A stretch of 20,365 nt of DNA from a virus, in the IMG/VR virus record IMGVR_UViG_3300006336_000117, positions 1 through 20,365 of that record. The stretch is one strand, 5' to 3'. This document shows, in pieces, positions 6,635 to 14,634 of the stretch. The first letter of the stretch is position 1; every line of letters begins with the position of its first letter. A model generated the notes under the pieces. That model worked only from the letters and a program-made list of their open reading frames with translations. It was not told where the DNA came from and did no database searches. The translations under genes were made by a program, and so were the position numbers.

Positions 6635-9600
6635 ATGGCAGAACAAATCTCAACAATCATAGACGAATCCAAATTAGTTGGTGGAGAAGTCATCAACGAA
6701 CAAATTCTTGAATCTCAAGAAGAAGAAAAAAATAAAGAAAAAGAAACAGAAGTAATTTCAGAAACATTAATTGATAAATCAAAATTAGTTGGTGGCGAAA
6801 AAGTTGAAGAACCTACCCAAATAACTTTCACAACAGACTCTATAATAGACAAATCCAAATTAGTTGGTGGCGAAAATGTCATAACTGGTGAGGAATATAC
6901 TGAACCTACAAATTTAGAAAGATTAGAATATGGTTGGGATAAAGAAACCATGGTTCTAGGAAATGTATTTAGAATAGGTAAAGCTAAAGTACAAGATTTA
7001 TTTGATGATGATAAATCTTTTAAAGATTATATTTTAGAAAATGAAAAGAAAAGATTAGAAGCTCTAGATAAAGAACATTGGAAATTTCGTGGTCGTGAAG
7101 ATGAAGGTGGAATAACAACAGTTGGTTCTATCGCTTCAATGATTTTAGACCCTTATTATTTAGCTGGATATTTAAATCCTGTTAGTTTAAAAGCTATGAC
7201 AAATCCTGTTAGTGCAGGTACATTAAATGCTTTATTAATATCAGGTGATGTTATCATAGATAATTTAGCAAAAACTGGTGAAGTAGATTGGGGAAGTGTT
7301 GCTTTAAGTGGAGCAACTGCTGGAGCAATTGGAGCAGTAATTCCTATTGGTGGAAATATTATTAAAAAATATGCTCCTAAATTTATTGAATCAGAAGTTA
7401 AATTAGTTGCTGATTTTATAGATAGAAAACTTGCTAAATCTAATAATATTTCTATATCTCAATTAAAGAAAATTCAAAATGTTTCTAAATCAGCACAAGT
7501 AAAAGCTGCTGATAATGAATTAATTAAATGGACTAGAAATTTTGTTCATCCTATTACAGCAGAAACTAAAAAGTTTAGAGCTTTAGAAAAAACATTATTA
7601 GAAAAAAGAAATCTATTAATCAAGATTAGAAAATTAAAAGGTAAAAAGAAACCTATACCAGGTAAATTATCTGGTATGTTGACACAAGAATCTCCTGGTA
7701 AACAAATCATTAATATTAGACAACAAATTATTGATGCTAAAAAAGCATCTGAAGCTGTTAAAAAGAATTTAATAACAAAACAACAAGGTAAATTAGAGAA
7801 CTGGGCTGAATTAATTTCTAATAGAAATGTAAAAATTCTAGAACAATTAAGAAAAAATGAAACAACAATTGACTGGGCAGCTAGAAGTTTATTTTCAGTT
7901 GCTGTAAGACCATTAGTAGGTGCTGGAATGGGTACTGTTGGTGGTATTTTATTTGGTGATGAAGAAACAGATTTAATGTATTGGGCTACTGCTGGTGCTG
8001 TTGCAGGTCAAATGCAAAAAATGATAGCGAGAAGTGCTAAGTTTGGAACTAAATTAGAGAAAGGAAAAATTTTAGGAGTTATTGATAGAGAGTTAACTCA
8101 ATTAACTTTACAAAAAGTTAGAGATTTAATGTCAGCAACAAGTGCTACCAAATTAGATTCTTATGGTGGTGCAACTAGGGAAATTGGCAAGATGTTATTT
8201 AGAGAAGTAGATTCTCCTGTTTCTCAAAAATCTGCAATCGCTATCGCTGACCAAATGCAAAGACATTTCTTTAGAAAAGTTGATAAAATTTTTAAACCTT
8301 ATAATAATGATGAAATAGCTTGGGCTATATCTATTAATAGAGGTAAACAATTAACAAAAGAAACACCAAAAAGAGTAGAAGAGTTATCTATTCAAGTTAA
8401 AAATTATATAGATGAATTTAAAAATTTATCTGAAGGAGCAGGATTCTTTCCTAAAAAAGAAATTGATGATTATTTCCCTAGAGTTTTAGATTGGGATGCA
8501 ATTAAGAAAGATGAAAAAGCTTTTTTAAAAACAGTTCAAGGAATTTATGAAAGCCTAGGTATGAAAGGTAAAGTAGCTTCTGGACCAAATAAAGGTAGAT
8601 TAAGGTCTGAAGTTGCAGCCGAAAGTTATTATGCTGGGCACAAAACTTCTGGTGATAGTGTATTTAATGCTCAAGTATTGAAAGAGATGTTTGAAAAATC
8701 TACATCAGGTGTTTCAAAATCTGGTAAGAAATTTATTTATGCTCCAGTTAGTGAGCATATTATTCATCAAAGAGCTTTACAAGGTCCTTATAAATTAGTT
8801 GAAGAAGTTTTAGAAAAAAAAGGATATTTAGTAAATGATGGTAAAAATATTTTAACTAGAATTGCAAATGATTCAGTTAAATCTATTGCATTTGCTAGAC
8901 AATTTGGAACTCATGGAGAATTACTACAACCTTTCTTTCAAAGAATTAAAGATAAATATTTAAAATCAGGATTAACAACTGAAAAAGCTTTGACTGCTGC
9001 AAATCAAGAAATGAAGTTAGTAGTTAATAGTATTGATGCATACTTTGATAGATATGGTGTTGCCATGACTGGTGCAGCTAAATCGTCAGCAGGAATTATT
9101 GCAACTTTAGGTAATGCAAATATGCTAGGTAGAGTTACTATATCATCTTTAGGTGATATAATTCAACCTTTACAAAACTCTAGTAATTGGACAGTTATTC
9201 TTAATGGTTTTAGAAGAACTGCTATAAGACAAGCAAAAGAAACTGGACCAGCTAGAGAATTAGGTTTAGATATATCTAATTCAATTCAACAAGGACTTCA
9301 AAGGTCGGCTGGTTTTGAAGGTAAAAATCTATTATTAAATAATAGTTGGATGGGTAAAACTCCTACAGAAACAGTTAATAATATAATGTTTAAAGCATTA
9401 GGATTACAATGGTTGACTGGTTATGCTAGAAGATTTGCTTATAATGTAGGTGTATCTGATGCTTATTATTTATCTAAAACTTTAAAGAAATTAACTGCTA
9501 GAGGATTAGAAAATTCTGGTAAAGCAAAAAGAATTAAATTTTTTTTAAATAATAATTATGAAATAACTACTAGACAAGCTTTACAACTAGGTTCAGCTAA

Positions 9601-11206
9601 AAATTTTGATGATGCAATACTTAATAAATTAAATAAAAAAGCTATTAATGATGCAGGAGTTAAAGCTGCTAATAGAGATGCATTAATTCCTCAAGCAGAT
9701 AATAGATTGTTATTTACTCAAAGTAATAATCAATGGGTTAGATTAATGGGTCAGTTTTTATCATGGGCACAAGCAAAATCTGCACAAACAAATAAAATTC
9801 TAATGAGAATAGAAAATGGTAGTGCTAAAACATTAATTAAAACTTTAGCAGTATTACCAGTTTATAGTGGAGTTCAATCATTAAGAGAGATAGCAAAATA
9901 TGGAGAAATTATAACTGATTATGATGCAAATAATAATAGATGGTGGGCAGAAGGTGCAAGACTATCAGGTATGTTTGGTTTTTTACCAGAACTAATTGCT
10001 AATAGATTTATTGGACCAGGAGCAAGAGAACCATGGTATTTATTTGCACCTGCTTTTACAATTATAGGAGCACCAGGAAGAGCAGCAAAACAATTTTGGG
10101 ATGGAGATACTGATAAAGCATTAGTAACTCTTAATGAAAAATTTTTTCCTTTACCTAATTGGAGACGAAGACTTTGGCAATTATTTACGTCTGGACCTCA
10201 ACCTTTAAAAATAAAAGGAACTACTATGGGTAGTAAATTAGAATGGAATTTAGGTGGTTTAGTTCTTAGAAAAAGATTTAAAAAAGGAGATGCAGTAGAA
10301 GCTGCTGCTATGGAAGATATAAATTTAAACAAACAGGAAGATATGAATATAAAAGATTTAGCAAATGTAGCTGCTGCAGCAACAATAGCTACAACAGGAG
10401 TGAATGCAGATATAAATAAAGCTGCAGAAAATAATATACTCCCTCCTTCTATAGTAGAAGAACAAATATTACCTGAAGAAAAACCTCTTTATGCTGAAGG
10501 AGCTTTTGTAGATTATATAGAACAAGTTGAAAATCCTAATCTTAAATATGGAATGATACATAAATCTGCAGAAGGTGGTAATGATACAATAGCGTTTGGG
10601 CATAAACTTACAGATAAAGAAATAAAAGATAATAAAGTTTATGGTTATAATCTTAATGAATTAACAGAGAAAAATGCAAAACATATACTACTATTAGATT
10701 TGCAAAAAGCAGATGAACAACTACAAGAAGATTATGGAGAAAAATATAATAAGTTAGATAAGAAAAGAAAACAAATGCTTATTGATTTTCAATATAATAT
10801 GGGTAGTGGTGGAGTAAAGAAATTTAAAAATTTTAAAGAAGGTCTTTTTTCTAATGATATAAACAAAATGAAAGAAGAATATGAAAGAGGATTTACCAAT
10901 GAAGAAGGTGAGTTTAAAAAATTAACCAATAGGAATAAAGAATTTTTTAATTACTTTTTCTCTGAAAGAAAAAAATTAAGAGTTGGTGGAGACCCTTCAG
11001 TTAGGTATAGTGATATTGCTAAATTAGATTTAGATAAATCAACTGATGAGTCAGCGATAAGTCAGGTTCCTACTGAGATAGATAAAATGATTGACCAAAA
11101 AGAAGCTCAAAAAATGATGACGGATGATTCAAGTATGCACGATAAACTTGATAAAGATATTCAAAAATTAAAAGAATTAAAAAATGAACAATTAGTTGCT
11201 GTTTAA
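6635..11206 (+). CDS. Giant ejection protein with C-terminal GH24 lysozyme domain
   Basis: This 1523-residue protein is the largest in the window and comparable to T7 gp16 (about 1300 residues), which forms the DNA-ejection channel. The N-terminus has three copies of I-D-x-S-K-L-V-G-G-E (ending at residues 18, 55 and 80) in an acidic linker. Hydrophobic Gly/Ala-rich segments near residues 222-248 and 417-442 could be membrane-inserting. The C-terminal domain (about 1286-1455) reads as a phage lysozyme: YIEQVEN (Glu1296/Glu1299, one probably catalytic), EGGNDTIAFGHKLT and a later FQYNMGSGG. It should cut peptidoglycan locally during genome entry. T7 gp16 instead carries an N-terminal transglycosylase, so the enzyme is at the opposite end here. 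The chosen ATG is the first in frame, 13 bases after the previous stop. Confidence 0.85.
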   Translation: MAEQISTIIDESKLVGGEVINEQILESQEEEKNKEKETEVISETLIDKSKLVGGEKVEEPTQITFTTDSIIDKSKLVGGENVITGEEYTEPTNLERLEYGWDKETMVLGNVFRIGKAKVQDLFDDDKSFKDYILENEKKRLEALDKEHWKFRGREDEGGITTVGSIASMILDPYYLAGYLNPVSLKAMTNPVSAGTLNALLISGDVIIDNLAKTGEVDWGSVALSGATAGAIGAVIPIGGNIIKKYAPKFIESEVKLVADFIDRKLAKSNNISISQLKKIQNVSKSAQVKAADNELIKWTRNFVHPITAETKKFRALEKTLLEKRNLLIKIRKLKGKKKPIPGKLSGMLTQESPGKQIINIRQQIIDAKKASEAVKKNLITKQQGKLENWAELISNRNVKILEQLRKNETTIDWAARSLFSVAVRPLVGAGMGTVGGILFGDEETDLMYWATAGAVAGQMQKMIARSAKFGTKLEKGKILGVIDRELTQLTLQKVRDLMSATSATKLDSYGGATREIGKMLFREVDSPVSQKSAIAIADQMQRHFFRKVDKIFKPYNNDEIAWAISINRGKQLTKETPKRVEELSIQVKNYIDEFKNLSEGAGFFPKKEIDDYFPRVLDWDAIKKDEKAFLKTVQGIYESLGMKGKVASGPNKGRLRSEVAAESYYAGHKTSGDSVFNAQVLKEMFEKSTSGVSKSGKKFIYAPVSEHIIHQRALQGPYKLVEEVLEKKGYLVNDGKNILTRIANDSVKSIAFARQFGTHGELLQPFFQRIKDKYLKSGLTTEKALTAANQEMKLVVNSIDAYFDRYGVAMTGAAKSSAGIIATLGNANMLGRVTISSLGDIIQPLQNSSNWTVILNGFRRTAIRQAKETGPARELGLDISNSIQQGLQRSAGFEGKNLLLNNSWMGKTPTETVNNIMFKALGLQWLTGYARRFAYNVGVSDAYYLSKTLKKLTARGLENSGKAKRIKFFLNNNYEITTRQALQLGSAKNFDDAILNKLNKKAINDAGVKAANRDALIPQADNRLLFTQSNNQWVRLMGQFLSWAQAKSAQTNKILMRIENGSAKTLIKTLAVLPVYSGVQSLREIAKYGEIITDYDANNNRWWAEGARLSGMFGFLPELIANRFIGPGAREPWYLFAPAFTIIGAPGRAAKQFWDGDTDKALVTLNEKFFPLPNWRRRLWQLFTSGPQPLKIKGTTMGSKLEWNLGGLVLRKRFKKGDAVEAAAMEDINLNKQEDMNIKDLANVAAAATIATTGVNADINKAAENNILPPSIVEEQILPEEKPLYAEGAFVDYIEQVENPNLKYGMIHKSAEGGNDTIAFGHKLTDKEIKDNKVYGYNLNELTEKNAKHILLLDLQKADEQLQEDYGEKYNKLDKKRKQMLIDFQYNMGSGGVKKFKNFKEGLFSNDINKMKEEYERGFTNEEGEFKKLTNRNKEFFNYFFSERKKLRVGGDPSVRYSDIAKLDLDKSTDESAISQVPTEIDKMIDQKEAQKMMTDDSSMHDKLDKDIQKLKELKNEQLVAV
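6656..6874 (+). repeat. Three copies of an IDxSKLVGGE coding motif
   Basis: Units at 6656-6688, 6767-6799 and 6842-6874 encode IIDESKLVGGE, LIDKSKLVGGE and IIDKSKLVGGE. The second and third differ at the DNA level mainly at silent sites. They are separated by 78 and 42 bases of acidic, low-complexity linker. The conserved core against variable linkers suggests a short linear binding motif displayed in multiple copies. Confidence 0.85.
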
Positions 11207-11209
11207 TTG

Positions 11210-11238
11210 TTGACAAGTAACAGATTTCTTACTATAAT
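11210..11238 (+). promoter_or_regulatory. Perfect-consensus sigma70 promoter for hsp20
   Basis: TTGACA (11210-11215) and TATAAT (11233-11238) match both consensus hexamers exactly, with the optimal 17-base spacer. Transcription should start near 11245. It begins 3 bases after the stop of the giant protein, so hsp20 and the downstream genes can be made by host RNA polymerase independently of the virion operon. Confidence 0.9.
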
Positions 11239-11249
11239 ATAGTATGAAA

Positions 11250-11301
11250 GAGTAATGTCCATTGTGGAGTTACTCAATTTAAATCGCTTAATGAAAGGAT
11301 T
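11250..11301 (+). promoter_or_regulatory. ROSE-like RNA thermometer in the hsp20 leader
   Basis: The leader (about 60 nt) folds into two hairpins. The first pairs GAGTAA (11250-11255) with TTACTC (11270-11275), with inner TCCA/TGGA. The second pairs AATC (11282-11285) and CTT (11287-11289) with AAG (11295-11297) and GATT (11298-11301), leaving G11286 bulged. It therefore contains UCGCU opposite AGGA, matching the UYGCU motif with unpaired G that defines ROSE thermometers of bacterial small heat-shock genes. The sequestered AAGGA (11295-11299) is the Shine-Dalgarno for the ATG at 11305. Melting with heat would expose it. Confidence 0.8.
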
Positions 11302-11304
11302 AAC

Positions 11305-11721
11305 ATGACAACATACGATTTAATAAACTTTGACCCATTTAAGAACTTCTCTATCGGTTTTGATAGAATGTTTGATTCATTGAATGAGGTCTCTAAGATA
11401 AATACTTCAAACTTTCCACCATATAACATTAGAAAGATAAAGGATGGGAAGTATCAGGTAGAGATGGCATTAGCTGGGTTCTCTAAATCTGATATCAAGT
11501 GTGAGTTGCAAGATGGGATACTTACAGTTGAAGCGAAGAAAGAAAAAGAAAGTGATAACTTGATTCATCAAGGGATTGCTTCAAGAAGTGTTCTAAGGAA
11601 GTTTACTCTTTCGGAATATATGATGGTAGAAGATGCTGATTTTAAAGATGGAATGCTTAAAATCAAACTCTATCAAGATTTACCTGAAGAGAAAAAACCG
11701 AGAACAATAAAGATTAAATAA
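11305..11721 (+). CDS. hsp20: Small heat-shock protein, Hsp20/IbpA family
   Basis: This 138-residue protein has a short N-terminal arm with DPFKNFSIGFDRMFDSL (residues 10-26, IbpA-like), an alpha-crystallin domain from about 39 to 128 with GKYQVEMALAGFSKSDI, the G-I-L-T-V strand and the family signature DADFKDGMLKIKL, and a C-terminal I-x-I motif (TIKIK) used for oligomer assembly. Such proteins hold unfolding proteins in a refoldable state without ATP. It has its own consensus promoter and a ROSE-type thermometer leader, so it is probably made early and increases with temperature. Phage hsp20 genes are known in marine phages, where a role in virion assembly or host stress protection has been proposed. 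Its codon usage includes more G/C-ending codons than the virion genes. Confidence 0.93.
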   Translation: MTTYDLINFDPFKNFSIGFDRMFDSLNEVSKINTSNFPPYNIRKIKDGKYQVEMALAGFSKSDIKCELQDGILTVEAKKEKESDNLIHQGIASRSVLRKFTLSEYMMVEDADFKDGMLKIKLYQDLPEEKKPRTIKIK

Positions 11722-11733
11722 ATCTTTACTGTC

Positions 11734-11781
11734 ATGGTGGTACCAGTAGGACTCATGCGAGTGAAACTGCTCTGCCACCAT
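11734..11781. ncRNA. Compact multi-helix RNA or attachment-like element
   Basis: ATGGTGG (11734-11740) pairs with CCACCAT (11775-11781); inside, CAGT pairs with ACTG and ACTC with GAGT, the latter two helices separated by an AGG/GAA internal loop that could form sheared G-A pairs. No U-run follows, so it is not a normal terminator. It is noticeably GC-richer than the surroundings and ends 9 bases before the next ATG, which has no Shine-Dalgarno. It may be a structured 5' UTR, an RNA-processing or termination signal, or a small RNA. I do not recognise it as a known riboswitch. Confidence 0.5.
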
Positions 11782-11790
11782 TAAAAAATT

Positions 11791-12156
11791 ATGATACCAT
11801 ACAATATATTATTTAAACTTGGTTCTAAAGCTGTCGGTTCTTTTATGAATAGACGGAAAGAAAAATCAGACAGGGCACACGCTATAGCCCTTCAAGAAAT
11901 GTCTACTGGAAATGAACGAGCTAAAAGAAATGGTTCTTTATTTTTAGATTTAATATTAGGAGCATTTATATTAGCACCATTAGGCATTCTTGCTTATGGT
12001 TCTTATTTGGGTGATGCATTAATATTAGAGAGAACTGAATTTTATTTCAACAGACTGAAAGAAATTCCTGAAGTCTACCTTTACTTAGTGTTTATAGTAG
12101 TAGGTGGAAACTATGGAATCTCTGTTACAAGTTTAATAAAAAATAGAAAAAAATAG
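11791..12156 (+). CDS. Putative holin (multi-TM)
   Basis: This 121-residue protein has a basic N-terminal region (residues 1-45) followed by two clear hydrophobic segments, FLDLILGAFILAPLGILAYG (about 51-70) and VYLYLVFIVVGGNYGISVTS (about 95-114), and a short basic tail (LIKNRKK). Topology and the closing V-V-G-G-N-Y-G-x-S segment resemble holins of the 3-TM gene-transfer-agent type, whose N-terminal third segment is weak. A holin permeabilises the inner membrane and times lysis. It heads a chain of small membrane-protein genes, which fits. No Shine-Dalgarno is visible before the ATG; the stem at 11734-11781 lies immediately upstream. The assignment comes from topology and context. Confidence 0.6.
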   Translation: MIPYNILFKLGSKAVGSFMNRRKEKSDRAHAIALQEMSTGNERAKRNGSLFLDLILGAFILAPLGILAYGSYLGDALILERTEFYFNRLKEIPEVYLYLVFIVVGGNYGISVTSLIKNRKK

Positions 12157-12251
12157 TGATAACAATAGCCTATGCATTATTAATGCTAGTCTTTATAAGT
12201 TTAGTTATTGGAATGGCTATTTGGTTTATTAAAGATTATTTTAAAAAATGA
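12156..12251 (+). CDS. 31-residue single-TM peptide (GTG start)
   Basis: A GTG at 12156 shares its G with the TAG of the previous gene, and the TGA stop overlaps the next ATG (ATGA). The product is almost all membrane span: ITIAYALLMLVFISLVIGMA followed by IWFIKDYFKK. Coupling at both ends and a perfect span between them support a real microprotein, plausibly a holin modulator or second lysis membrane peptide. The function is not known. Confidence 0.65.
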   Translation: MITIAYALLMLVFISLVIGMAIWFIKDYFKK

Positions 12252-12637
12252 AAATATCCGACAAGACTGCTATAAGTATGCCTATGAGAAATCTTATAGG
12301 GATTGTAACAGCAGTTTCTGTAGGGGTGTGGGCATTCTTTGGGATTCAAGAGACCCTTAATAAACATAGCACAACTTTAGAGTTAATGTCTAAAGATTTA
12401 GAAGCTAATAGTGAATTCAGAATTAAATATCCTAGGGGAGAGTTAGGACAATCTTCAGGAGAAGCAGAACTTTTCATGCTTGTGGAACACATGAGTTCTC
12501 TTTTAGAAGATTTAAATAACGAAATTAAAGGCATGAGAAATAATAAAGTGAACATAGATTTTTTAAAAGAACGAGTTAAAAAATTAGGTGATGATGTTGA
12601 AAAATTAATTAGAAATGGTAATGGAATAAAACAATGA
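12248..12637 (+). CDS. Membrane-anchored coiled-coil protein
   Basis: This 129-residue protein has one N-terminal span (NLIGIVTAVSVGVWAFFGIQ, about residues 15-34) and a charged, helical remainder with predicted coiled coil at about 80-123 (LVEHMSSLLEDLNNEIKGM and VNIDFLKERVKKLGDDVEKL). There is no signal-cleavage site, so it should be anchored in the inner membrane. The layout is that of an inner-membrane spanin or a tail-adjacent membrane protein; similar proteins occur in marine phages as I recall. It overlaps both neighbours by ATGA. The function is unproven. Confidence 0.7.
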   Translation: MKISDKTAISMPMRNLIGIVTAVSVGVWAFFGIQETLNKHSTTLELMSKDLEANSEFRIKYPRGELGQSSGEAELFMLVEHMSSLLEDLNNEIKGMRNNKVNIDFLKERVKKLGDDVEKLIRNGNGIKQ

Positions 12638-12849
12638 TAGAAACTGTTGTAGCTTTACTACTTATATTAAATGGAAATGTTATTGAACATACCTTTAAAG
12701 ATAATTTAAGCTCATGCTTAAAGTCCAAGAGGATTGCTCAGAGAGAAGTAAATCCTGAGTCTGTAATTTTTAGCTGTAAAATTGTTGAAGCTAAAACTGA
12801 AATATATATGGGTGGAAAAAAGATACTTAAAATAATAAAGACAAAATAA
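12634..12849 (+). CDS. Small exported or membrane protein
   Basis: The 71-residue product starts with a short hydrophobic stretch (MIETVVALLLILNGNVIEH) that could be a signal or a surface strand, followed by a soluble part with Cys28 and Cys48 (SSCLKSK and FSCKIVE) that might form a disulfide. It is coupled to the previous gene by ATGA overlap. I do not recognise a characterised family. The position within the membrane-protein chain points to an envelope or lysis-related role. Confidence 0.65.
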   Translation: MIETVVALLLILNGNVIEHTFKDNLSSCLKSKRIAQREVNPESVIFSCKIVEAKTEIYMGGKKILKIIKTK

Positions 12850-12862
12850 GGAAGGAGAAACA

Positions 12863-12928
12863 ATGGCTAAAAAGAAAAAGAAAAAAGGCAAAAAGAAAAA
12901 TAAAAAAAATAAAAAGAAAAAGAAATAA
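12863..12928 (+). CDS. 21-residue poly-lysine peptide
   Basis: An ATG 13 bases after the previous stop, with an excellent Shine-Dalgarno (AAGGAAGGAG, 12848-12857) at good spacing, opens a 21-codon frame: Met-Ala, then 16 Lys, 2 Asn and 1 Gly. Codons alternate AAA and AAG, which limits poly-A slippage. The strong ribosome site and clean stop argue for translation. Such a peptide could bind DNA, RNA or membranes, but none of this can be shown here. Alternatively the run may act on ribosomes, since consecutive lysine codons can slow translation. Confidence 0.55.
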   Translation: MAKKKKKKGKKKNKKNKKKKK

Positions 12929-12932
12929 CTAA

Positions 12933-13007
12933 ATGATGGAGAGCATATTTATAATTATAGTCGTATGTTTTATAATATATGTTGTCCATGATTTAAAAAG
13001 AAAATGA
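12933..13007 (+). CDS. 24-residue single-TM peptide
   Basis: The frame MMESIFIIIVVCFIIYVVHD plus LKRK is one uninterrupted membrane span with a positive C-terminal end. The stop overlaps the next ATG (ATGA at 13004), matching the coupling pattern of this cassette. The second Met codon (12936) is an equally good start; no strong Shine-Dalgarno is present, so translation may depend on the gene before it. Possible lysis or holin-regulating peptide. Confidence 0.5.
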   Translation: MMESIFIIIVVCFIIYVVHDLKRK

Positions 13008-13204
13008 TTAACGATAAATTAATAACAGTACTACTCGCTATATTATTAGCACTCGGAGGATGGAATCTCCAGCGAACTTTTACTCTGTCGCAAGACATGG
13101 TTCTAATTAAAGAAAAGGTTGGAAATATAGAGCATGAATTACAACACTTTAAGAAACTTCAGAAGAAGAAGAATCGAAAGAAGAATAAGGAAAAGACAGG
13201 CTAG
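13004..13204 (+). CDS. Inner-membrane coiled-coil protein, i-spanin-like
   Basis: This 66-residue protein has an N-terminal span (LITVLLAILLALGGWNLQRT, about residues 6-25), a short heptad-like helix (DMVLIKEKVGNIEHELQHFKKL) and a lysine-rich tail (KKKNRKKNKEK). This is the plan of a small Rz-type inner-membrane spanin subunit, although it is shorter than usual. It overlaps the previous gene by ATGA, and the secreted protein that follows begins 4 bases after its stop. The spanin assignment is inference from topology and neighbour. Confidence 0.6.
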   Translation: MINDKLITVLLAILLALGGWNLQRTFTLSQDMVLIKEKVGNIEHELQHFKKLQKKKNRKKNKEKTG

Positions 13205-13208
13205 ATGG

Positions 13209-13694
13209 ATGCGTTATTTTACTACGCTTCTGTTCGTCTGTCTATTTTTATTAGGGTGGTGTGCTCAAGCTCAAGGTAAGAATGAATATCTTGGAGACAA
13301 TTGGCGTAATTGTGATTCAGGAACCTTTGAACCTTATGTAGAAAAGAGTGAACGAGATGTTGATTATTTTGATAATGACAGCTCCCATGATGATGATGAA
13401 TTAAGATATGGATTTAGATTTAGATTCAAACTTGGAAATACCTGCGATAAAGAATTCAAAAAAAAGCAAGAAGAACGATACGAACTACACCAACAAATAG
13501 AACTTCTTAAAATCTGTAGAAAATATAAGACTGCAGAGATGGGTCCTGAGTTAGAACTCGTTGCTAAAAAATGTAGAGATATTAAGTATAAGAAAATAGA
13601 AAAGAATAGACCTGACCAAGATAATCTATTTGATGAGATACTAAAGATAGAAAAGAAAAAACAAATGGAATTAAAAGATAGTGGAGAAAAGTAA
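13209..13694 (+). CDS. Secreted Cys-containing protein, spanin-partner candidate
   Basis: I place the start at the ATG at 13209, giving 161 residues that open with a clean signal peptide, MRYFTTLLFVCLFLLGWCAQ, and a likely A-Q-A cleavage just after it. A longer reading from 13134 adds only an Arg-rich stretch that is the other frame of the preceding gene's lysine-rich tail. The Cys in the signal region lies in G-W-C, a poor lipobox because of the Trp. The mature part has an acidic region (DVDYFDNDSSHDDDELRYGF), four Cys suited to two disulfides, and a charged C-terminal helix. It should be periplasmic. Together with the preceding gene it resembles a spanin pair, but it lacks a convincing lipoprotein signal. 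Confidence 0.65.
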   Translation: MRYFTTLLFVCLFLLGWCAQAQGKNEYLGDNWRNCDSGTFEPYVEKSERDVDYFDNDSSHDDDELRYGFRFRFKLGNTCDKEFKKKQEERYELHQQIELLKICRKYKTAEMGPELELVAKKCRDIKYKKIEKNRPDQDNLFDEILKIEKKKQMELKDSGEK

Positions 13695-14022
13695 ATTTAA
13701 TATTTTTGTAATTATTCCAGTAGTTATTTCTCTTGTAGCTGCAACCTTTGGGTCTGTTAAATATATTCTTAATTTAACTGATACTATTAATAAAAATGAA
13801 ACAGCAGTTCTTATATTAAACAAAGACATTAATCAAATCTTTGATAAGTATGCACAAGACAAAGAAGAATTTACAAGAGAAATGTTTGAGGTTAATGCTA
13901 GAGTAACTGAAGGTACTGCTTACTATAGAGCATTAGAAGAAATTTTAAGAAAGACAACTGACTCTGTTAGAGAACAACAATATGATATTAAAGATTTACA
14001 ACGTGAAGTCTTAGGAGATTAG
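13681..14022 (+). CDS. Membrane-anchored coiled-coil protein (GTG start)
   Basis: A GTG at 13681, 14 bases inside the previous gene, begins a 113-residue protein with an N-terminal span (NIFVIIPVVISLVAATFGSV, about residues 7-26) and a long helical domain with heptad spacing to the C-terminus (ending REQQYDIKDLQREVLGD). Its plan matches the 12248-12637 protein, so the cassette holds at least two anchor-plus-coiled-coil proteins. Spanin-like or receptor-binding membrane roles are both possible. No better in-frame ATG exists before the span. Confidence 0.65.
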   Translation: MEKSKFNIFVIIPVVISLVAATFGSVKYILNLTDTINKNETAVLILNKDINQIFDKYAQDKEEFTREMFEVNARVTEGTAYYRALEEILRKTTDSVREQQYDIKDLQREVLGD

Positions 14023-14141
14023 TGAAAAAGCATTATGCTTTCTTTCTTAAAAAAAGAAGATGGTATAGTAGAACAAAAAAAAGAACAAAATCTGTTGATG
14101 AATATGACTGGAACACACCTAGAAAAGAAAAAAAGAAATGA
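14022..14141 (+). CDS. 39-residue basic peptide (GTG start)
   Basis: The GTG at 14022 shares its G with the previous TAG, and the TGA stop overlaps the next ATG at 14138. The product is highly basic with aromatic residues (KKHYAFFLKKRRWYSRTKKR, then a short acidic DEYDWNTP segment and KEKKK). Overlap-coupling at both ends mirrors the 12156 microgene and supports translation. There is no membrane span; nucleic-acid or lipid binding is plausible, but the function is unknown. Confidence 0.55.
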   Translation: MKKHYAFFLKKRRWYSRTKKRTKSVDEYDWNTPRKEKKK

Positions 14142-14380
14142 TAAAGTACTTGTTGGTAATAAAGATATGCTATGCAGTTGCACAATTCTGTGGACCAGGA
14201 TTAGAAAGTAATAATCTTTATGATAGTTTTCGTGATTGTGCTTTAGACGGATATACAAAATCACATGAGATTATATTATCTATGCCTCCAACTCAAGTAG
14301 AATCAACACAAACAATTATAAAATTTTATTGTATAAAAAAGGAGACTGACCCAGTTCCTTTAAAAGGAACTCCTATTTAG
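14138..14380 (+). CDS. Small exported Cys-containing protein
   Basis: The 80-residue product has a moderately hydrophobic N-terminus (MIKYLLVIKICYAVAQFCGP) that may be a signal or membrane-associating helix, and four Cys (11, 18, 34, 65) that could pair in the periplasm. No known domain is recognised. It is the last gene of the + strand cassette; its TAG overlaps the TAA of the opposing operon within a hairpin. Confidence 0.65.
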   Translation: MIKYLLVIKICYAVAQFCGPGLESNNLYDSFRDCALDGYTKSHEIILSMPPTQVESTQTIIKFYCIKKETDPVPLKGTPI

Positions 14381-14384
14381 GAGT
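14354..14384. terminator. Candidate bidirectional terminator at convergent operons
   Basis: Two adjacent hairpins can form: GTTCCT (14354-14359) with AGGAAC (14365-14370), and ACTCCTA (14369-14375) with TAGGAGT (14378-14384). The stop codons of the converging genes overlap at 14377-14380, inside the second stem. No immediate U-run is seen on the + strand; on the - strand a CTCCTTTTTTAT stretch follows about 13 bases after the first stem. A terminator here is expected from the layout. Confidence 0.5.
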
Positions 14385-14634
14385 GGTACACATCTCTTGC
14401 TATTTTTTCTAAATAGTCATGTAACTCTGTAAAATTAGTTTTGCATTCTCTTAACATAGCAACTATAACTCCTGCATTTTCTTTTTTAAAATGTAAAGGA
14501 ATTTTATCTGAGGGATAAGTTTTAAGTTCAGTAATAAACTGACCTTGATTATTAATAATCAATTTGAAGCCCATCAAGTCGGCTTCTTTTCTCTTAACCC
14601 TTTTGGATTTATTTAATTTTCGTGGGAGTTGCAC
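14377..14634 (-). CDS. Hypothetical early protein
   Basis: The longest reading starts at a GTG (14634) and gives 85 residues; an internal ATG at 14574 (starting MGFKLIINNQGQF) gives 65 and avoids a 26-base overlap with the upstream gene, so the start is uncertain. The first 20 residues of the long form are very basic (KLNKSKRVKRKEAD). The remainder looks like a small alpha/beta fold with a C-terminal helix (TELHDYLEKIARDVYHS). I recognise no family. It is the last gene of the leftward operon. Confidence 0.6.
   Translation of the reverse strand: MQLPRKLNKSKRVKRKEADLMGFKLIINNQGQFITELKTYPSDKIPLHFKKENAGVIVAMLRECKTNFTELHDYLEKIARDVYHS

Follow-up and report, generated by a model that had tools for sequence, protein, structure and literature searches.

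Host-like genes for small heat-shock proteins are common in ocean phages, and the literature that we searched gave no account of their control during infection. The question is raised here by a virus record (IMGVR_UViG_3300006336_000117, 20,365 bases, analyzed over its whole length and referred to below as the window) that codes for a 138-aa small heat-shock protein at positions 11305 to 11721 of the plus strand (Pfam PF00011 [HSP20], 1.6e-16; PHROG 432, 7e-39). Comparative sequence analysis makes it probable, in our judgment, that the leader of about 60 nucleotides (nt) in front of this pelagiphage hsp20 gene is an RNA thermometer element of the ROSE type, in a short form with two hairpins.

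Genomic context and promoter of hsp20

The window virus is a pelagiphage. Its Hsp20 is 80% identical to the counterpart in the isolated Pelagibacter phages HTVC103P and HTVC104P, and the gene order around hsp20 resembles that of these two phages. Immediately upstream of the hsp20 cassette lies an open reading frame (ORF) of 1523 aa (6635 to 11206) with a phage lysozyme domain near its C terminus (residues 1314 to 1435); the end of this ORF varies among relatives just before the hsp20 promoter. Elsewhere, the ORF at 54 to 260 codes for a full 68-aa cold-shock protein, and that at 389 to 2284 for a repetitive protein of 631 aa that starts with the first part only of a cold-shock domain, so that, with hsp20, the phage has both cold-shock and heat-shock type genes. 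Downstream of the hsp20 stop codon there is a strong hairpin (11733 to 11782, predicted at -21 kcal/mol for the stretch) with no T run after it. About half of the relatives have a recurring one-by-three internal loop in this hairpin, and others a plain GC-rich stem (CTAGGGAG..CTCCCTAG).

The perfect-consensus promoter that the initial annotation had placed before hsp20 is indeed there: a sigma-70 promoter, TTGACA-17-TATAAT, occupies 11210 to 11238 of the plus strand, matches the consensus at 12 of 12 positions and is the sole 12/12 match within 10000 to 14500. In the window's family, each of 56 distinct leaders has TTGACA, a 17-nt spacer and TATAAT or TATACT, and the hsp20 transcript should start near 11245. 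An inverted repeat (TTTCTTACTATAATATAGTATGAAA, 11222 to 11249) overlaps the -10 box; its sequence differs among relatives, with the palindrome kept in many and absent in some. Its place ahead of the predicted start of transcription would suit an operator, or else a hairpin that forms in read-through RNA.

Anatomy of the leader

We took the features of ROSE-like elements from PMC3669281 and PMC4166951: a position next to a small heat-shock gene, U(U/C)GCU paired imperfectly with the Shine-Dalgarno (SD) sequence, and two to four hairpins. In the window, hsp20 lies directly 3' of the leader, and both hairpins described in the initial annotation are recovered by folding. Hairpin I (11250 to 11275, plus strand) is predicted to be a stable 5' stem of 11 pairs with a bulged G11257, GAGUAAU[G]UCCA-UUG-UGGAGUUACUC. 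Hairpin II (11282 to 11301, plus strand) sets AAUC[G11286]CUU against AAG-GAUU across the loop AAUGA, so that UCGCU (11284 to 11288) stands opposite the SD sequence AGGA (11296 to 11299) with G11286 bulged; this assignment draws on the predicted fold, motif conservation and covariation of the flanking pair across families. The exact motif is present once in the window, and the hairpin II fold with the SD sequence paired has a z score of -2.3, with 3 of 200 shuffled sequences folding equally well. The leader was also considered as a fourU thermometer, but the strand paired with the SD sequence is AUCGCUU, not four consecutive U.

Conservation and covariation

We gathered phage hsp20 genes by protein similarity alone, with five queries, and added named phage records. 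Among 264 distinct phage hsp20 leaders, UYGCU precedes the SD sequence in 260, whereas of 474 control leaders with an SD sequence, taken from viral loci, 12 have it; all queries except the first came from phages already known to bear the motif, and the survey thus covers their relatives, mostly marine, rather than all phage hsp20. This count leaves out loci fetched via the motif itself, with which it becomes 286 of 290, and the motif is kept in the window's own family by all 22 leaders that were fetched by protein. The motif of the window leader is therefore real and beyond chance. Four of the 264 leaders lack UYGCU before the SD sequence: cyanophage S-TIM54 (which has ACGCU), L280 (apparently a misassigned start codon) and two Vibrio phages. 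The near-universal presence of this leader design on hsp20 of the marine phages surveyed came as a surprise.

For 200 of 260 phage leaders the minimum-energy fold contains hairpin I with a single bulged G, compared with 6 of 260 shuffled sequences. ROSE folds of minimum energy were obtained for 180 of 290 leaders cut at -45, which removes hairpin I, and for 178 of 286 refolded at -72, too few to carry the case, which rests instead on conservation and covariation. Within a second type of phage hsp20, two members (L065 and L077) keep hairpin II but carry an unrelated sequence where hairpin I would normally be, as if by recombination exchange.

Compensatory changes, for which the initial annotation had proposed aligning related phage leaders, are found both within the family and across families. 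In the alignment of the window's family (A3), 99.1% of cells are paired and five pairs show two-sided changes, four of them in hairpin I; hairpin II is nearly invariant there, with one compensated pair, so its covariation rests mainly on other families. Across 282 leaders, the pair that flanks the SD/anti-SD core on its outer side is C-G in 130, G-C in 56, A-U in 43, U-G in 36 and U-A in 2, with 15 unpaired, although many of these sequences are related and the independent changes amount to a handful. Neither A3 nor this motif-anchored count was fitted to the structure. In the cross-family alignment A5, two-sided changes are seen at 12 of 16 pairs. Its covariation score of 0.648 compares with 0.199 for shuffled sequences and at most 0.111 for slid pairs; A5 was fitted to the structure and leans towards it. 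A cross-family MAFFT alignment (A1), in which hairpin I was misaligned, was discarded.

Relationship to the ROSE families

The scan with Rfam ROSE models that the initial annotation had suggested was negative for the window itself: ROSE (RF00435), ROSE_2 (RF01832) and ROSE_3 (RF02523) gave no match at the gathering threshold and chance matches only at E values up to 10. Formal membership in these families was accordingly rejected, with the best relative at 34.1 of the 43 bits required. That relative is Melnitz-3, whose hsp20 leader is the sole ROSE_3 match in a record of 141 kb (E = 1.6e-6). Below the 43-bit cut-off but exactly on the hsp20 leader, ROSE_3 also scores in L501, L344, L304 and L498 (24.8, 24.2, 21.7 and 19.7 bits), with E = 0.0012 for L501 when 111 bases were searched. 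The ROSE_3 consensus likewise has a bulged G in hairpin I (GAUGCCGAA..GGGUC). RF00435 gave three weak matches in 115 alphaproteobacterial genomes, none of them above the cut-off.

We also built covariance models of our own. R1, made from the window's family only, finds leaders of other phage families and matches over its full length in front of an alphaproteobacterial hsp20 (L195, E = 1.4e-4). Its successor R2, made from phage leaders plus L195 and hence almost wholly phage, gave 24 matches at E values up to 0.01 in 385 alphaproteobacterial genomes. All 24 precede heat-shock genes, namely 14 hsp20, 8 rpoH (sigma-32) and 2 dnaK, seven of the proteins having been checked by profile and the others assigned by reading the sequence. 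The rpoH and dnaK matches are L584, L586, L590, L591, L594 and L596 to L600. Ten low-GC genomes (1.2 to 1.6 Mb) with an R2 match at hsp20 code for proteorhodopsin, which fits SAR11-like marine bacteria. In a set of 88 loci, R2 gave 73 matches (E up to 0.05), of which 72 fall at the 5' end of hsp20. A search of genome contigs with the exact 17-mer returned mostly chance matches at unrelated places, along with three alphaproteobacterial hsp20 leaders.

R2 also finds, weakly, the leader of Pseudomonas aeruginosa ibpA (in L603, E = 0.041). Counted 61 nt back from the ATG, this leader has CCGC at 23 to 26, the G of UUGCU at 39 and SD guanines at 52 and 54, the same positions as in the leader for which thermometer function has been proven by reporter assays, probing and ribosome binding (PMC3669281). 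Taken together, the conservation of the motif, the covariation, the sub-threshold but exactly placed ROSE_3 signal in related phages, the confinement of all 24 bacterial matches to heat-shock genes and the weak ibpA match make the ROSE type claimed in the initial annotation a well-supported assignment at the level of sequence.

Evolution of the hsp20 cassette

The Hsp20 tree mixes phages and bacteria, with five label changes, at least two of them forced by well-supported branches. Mosig and HTVC008M group with the bacterial proteins L593 and L595, and both bacterial genomes carry proteorhodopsin genes. Within the window's family, the DNA upstream of TTGACA varies among relatives while promoter, leader and hsp20 remain linked, in the manner of a mobile cassette. 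For cyanophage small heat-shock genes, a published study concluded that bacterial class A genes are closer relatives than those of cyanobacteria; it makes no mention of regulation, promoters or thermometers (PMC3827213).

Proposed mechanism and alternative explanations

In the mechanism that we propose, the strong sigma-70 promoter would produce hsp20 mRNA, in which a stable hairpin I would aid folding and stay folded on warming. Hairpin II would pair AGGA with U(C/U)GCU (bulged G) and thereby restrict ribosome binding at low temperature; warming would open hairpin II first and Hsp20 would be made, the presumed benefit being protein protection during warm or stressful infections. We infer the melting of hairpin II and the temperature-dependent translation, and with them the temperature response of the window leader, by analogy with the proven relative, Pseudomonas ibpA. 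The predicted energy of hairpin II on its own rises from -5.2 kcal/mol at 15°C to -2.2 at 37°C and -0.4 at 50°C, although the predicted melting of a weak hairpin alone does not mark a thermometer.

Folding across temperatures, as the initial annotation had advised, upholds its claim of a fully hidden SD sequence in one setting and not in the other. In the leader alone the SD sequence stays paired (predicted 2 to 12% unpaired at 10 to 37°C), whereas folding of the full leader with the coding sequence predicts no simple SD opening, the SD sequence being mostly unpaired at all temperatures. For this reason we looked into competing pairing. The outer arm of the anti-SD strand (UUAAAUCG, 11279 to 11286, plus strand) is a perfect 8-nt complement of CGAUUUAA (11316 to 11323, plus strand) in codons 4 to 7 of hsp20, a complementarity confined to the window's genus. 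Extending the folded RNA by about 18 or more coding nt moves the predicted ensemble to another structure, in which the SD sequence is about 70% unpaired; the energy at 20°C is predicted to be -23.9 kcal/mol with the coding complement, whereas a slightly shorter RNA in the hairpin II state comes to -19.7. The competing pairing may be a second regulatory pairing or may reflect a weakness of nearest-neighbor energies, and it is the main uncertainty about the mechanism in the window's genus.

These predictions allow a bistable leader, in which the anti-SD strand pairs either with the SD sequence or with codons 4 to 7, the competition being shifted by temperature, transcription speed or elongating ribosomes. 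We think this possible, with the odds clearly against it, and it would add to the ROSE element of the window's phage genus rather than replace it. Besides the energies, the complementarity speaks for such a leader: the longest complement averages 7.6 in the window's family against 4.4 in shuffled sequences, and it is kept wholly or partly in three different N termini via codons that are rare in the genome (TAC, 5% of Tyr; CGA, 5% of Arg; ACG, 2% of Thr). These codons, however, represent few independent cases, other phage families show no excess of complementarity between anti-SD strand and coding sequence, and nearest-neighbor energies omit the non-canonical pairs of ROSE elements and treat multiloops roughly. 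With 30 coding nt appended, the SD pairing is predicted to be partly lost in several other phage families too. The fuller form of this idea, that in the window's pelagiphage genus the ROSE thermometer became a two-state switch between the SD sequence and codons 4 to 7 with its coding partner held by rare codons, we put forward as a speculation, somewhat less likely still.

The hairpin could also be a fixed damper of translation, or sense a cue other than heat, such as a host or phage protein, a small RNA or ribosome availability. Any hairpin that hides an SD sequence reduces translation and every weak one melts on heating, and what the comparisons establish is anatomy, conservation, covariation and, for the bacterial matches, restriction to heat-shock genes. 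That restriction, and the fact that a proven thermometer (PMC3669281) has a UYGCU/AGGA core with the same bulged G and a hairpin I of the same design, make a damper or non-thermal sensor improbable. Still further from what we expect is a passive remnant, acquired with hsp20 from a bacterial host and functionless in the phage: the intermixing of phage and bacterial Hsp20 and the travel of promoter, leader and gene as one unit would suit it, but the leader shows compensatory changes and is retained almost universally in phage families that have diverged, which points to continuing selection, and we give the remnant hardly any weight. A thermometer of ROSE type remains our preferred reading.

Comparison with known thermometers and implications

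The initial annotation was mistaken in supposing that a phage sensing temperature through RNA had not been described, since lambda cIII (PMC4166951) and the fourU element of SPbeta blyA (PMC10586365) are known phage RNA thermometers. They share with the window leader, where this role is a prediction, the sensing of temperature by a phage mRNA leader; their structures and genes are different, and neither is a ROSE element or belongs to hsp20. The literature that we searched, which covered few subscription papers, contains no report of a phage ROSE element on hsp20, of thermometers in cyanophages or Pelagibacter or of ROSE elements with rpoH.

The closest known system is Pseudomonas ibpA (ROSE_3, RF02523; PMC3669281), likewise a leader of about 60 nt on a small heat-shock gene, with two hairpins, a bulged G in hairpin I, U(U/C)GCU with a bulged G pairing the SD sequence in hairpin II and the start codon outside the hairpins. 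The window element differs in being phage-borne and AT-rich, in its weaker hairpin II, in a sequence beyond the reach of the Rfam model and in the extra complement to codons 4 to 7 in its phage genus. Rhizobial and enterobacterial ROSE elements (RF00435, RF01832) also precede small heat-shock genes and pair U(U/C)GCU imperfectly with the SD sequence in the 3'-proximal hairpin, but they have three to four hairpins rather than two and their models do not match the window. The low-GC alphaproteobacterial leaders (L579 to L602) share both hairpins and the UYGCU/AGGA core and are found by the same covariance model; unlike the window element they are chromosomal and occur also on rpoH and dnaK, and we found no report of them in the literature searched. 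As thermometers, the matches before rpoH and dnaK would extend the ROSE type beyond small heat-shock genes. If the thermometer is conserved among the phages, the expression of a viral chaperone would be tied directly to temperature in very abundant viruses.
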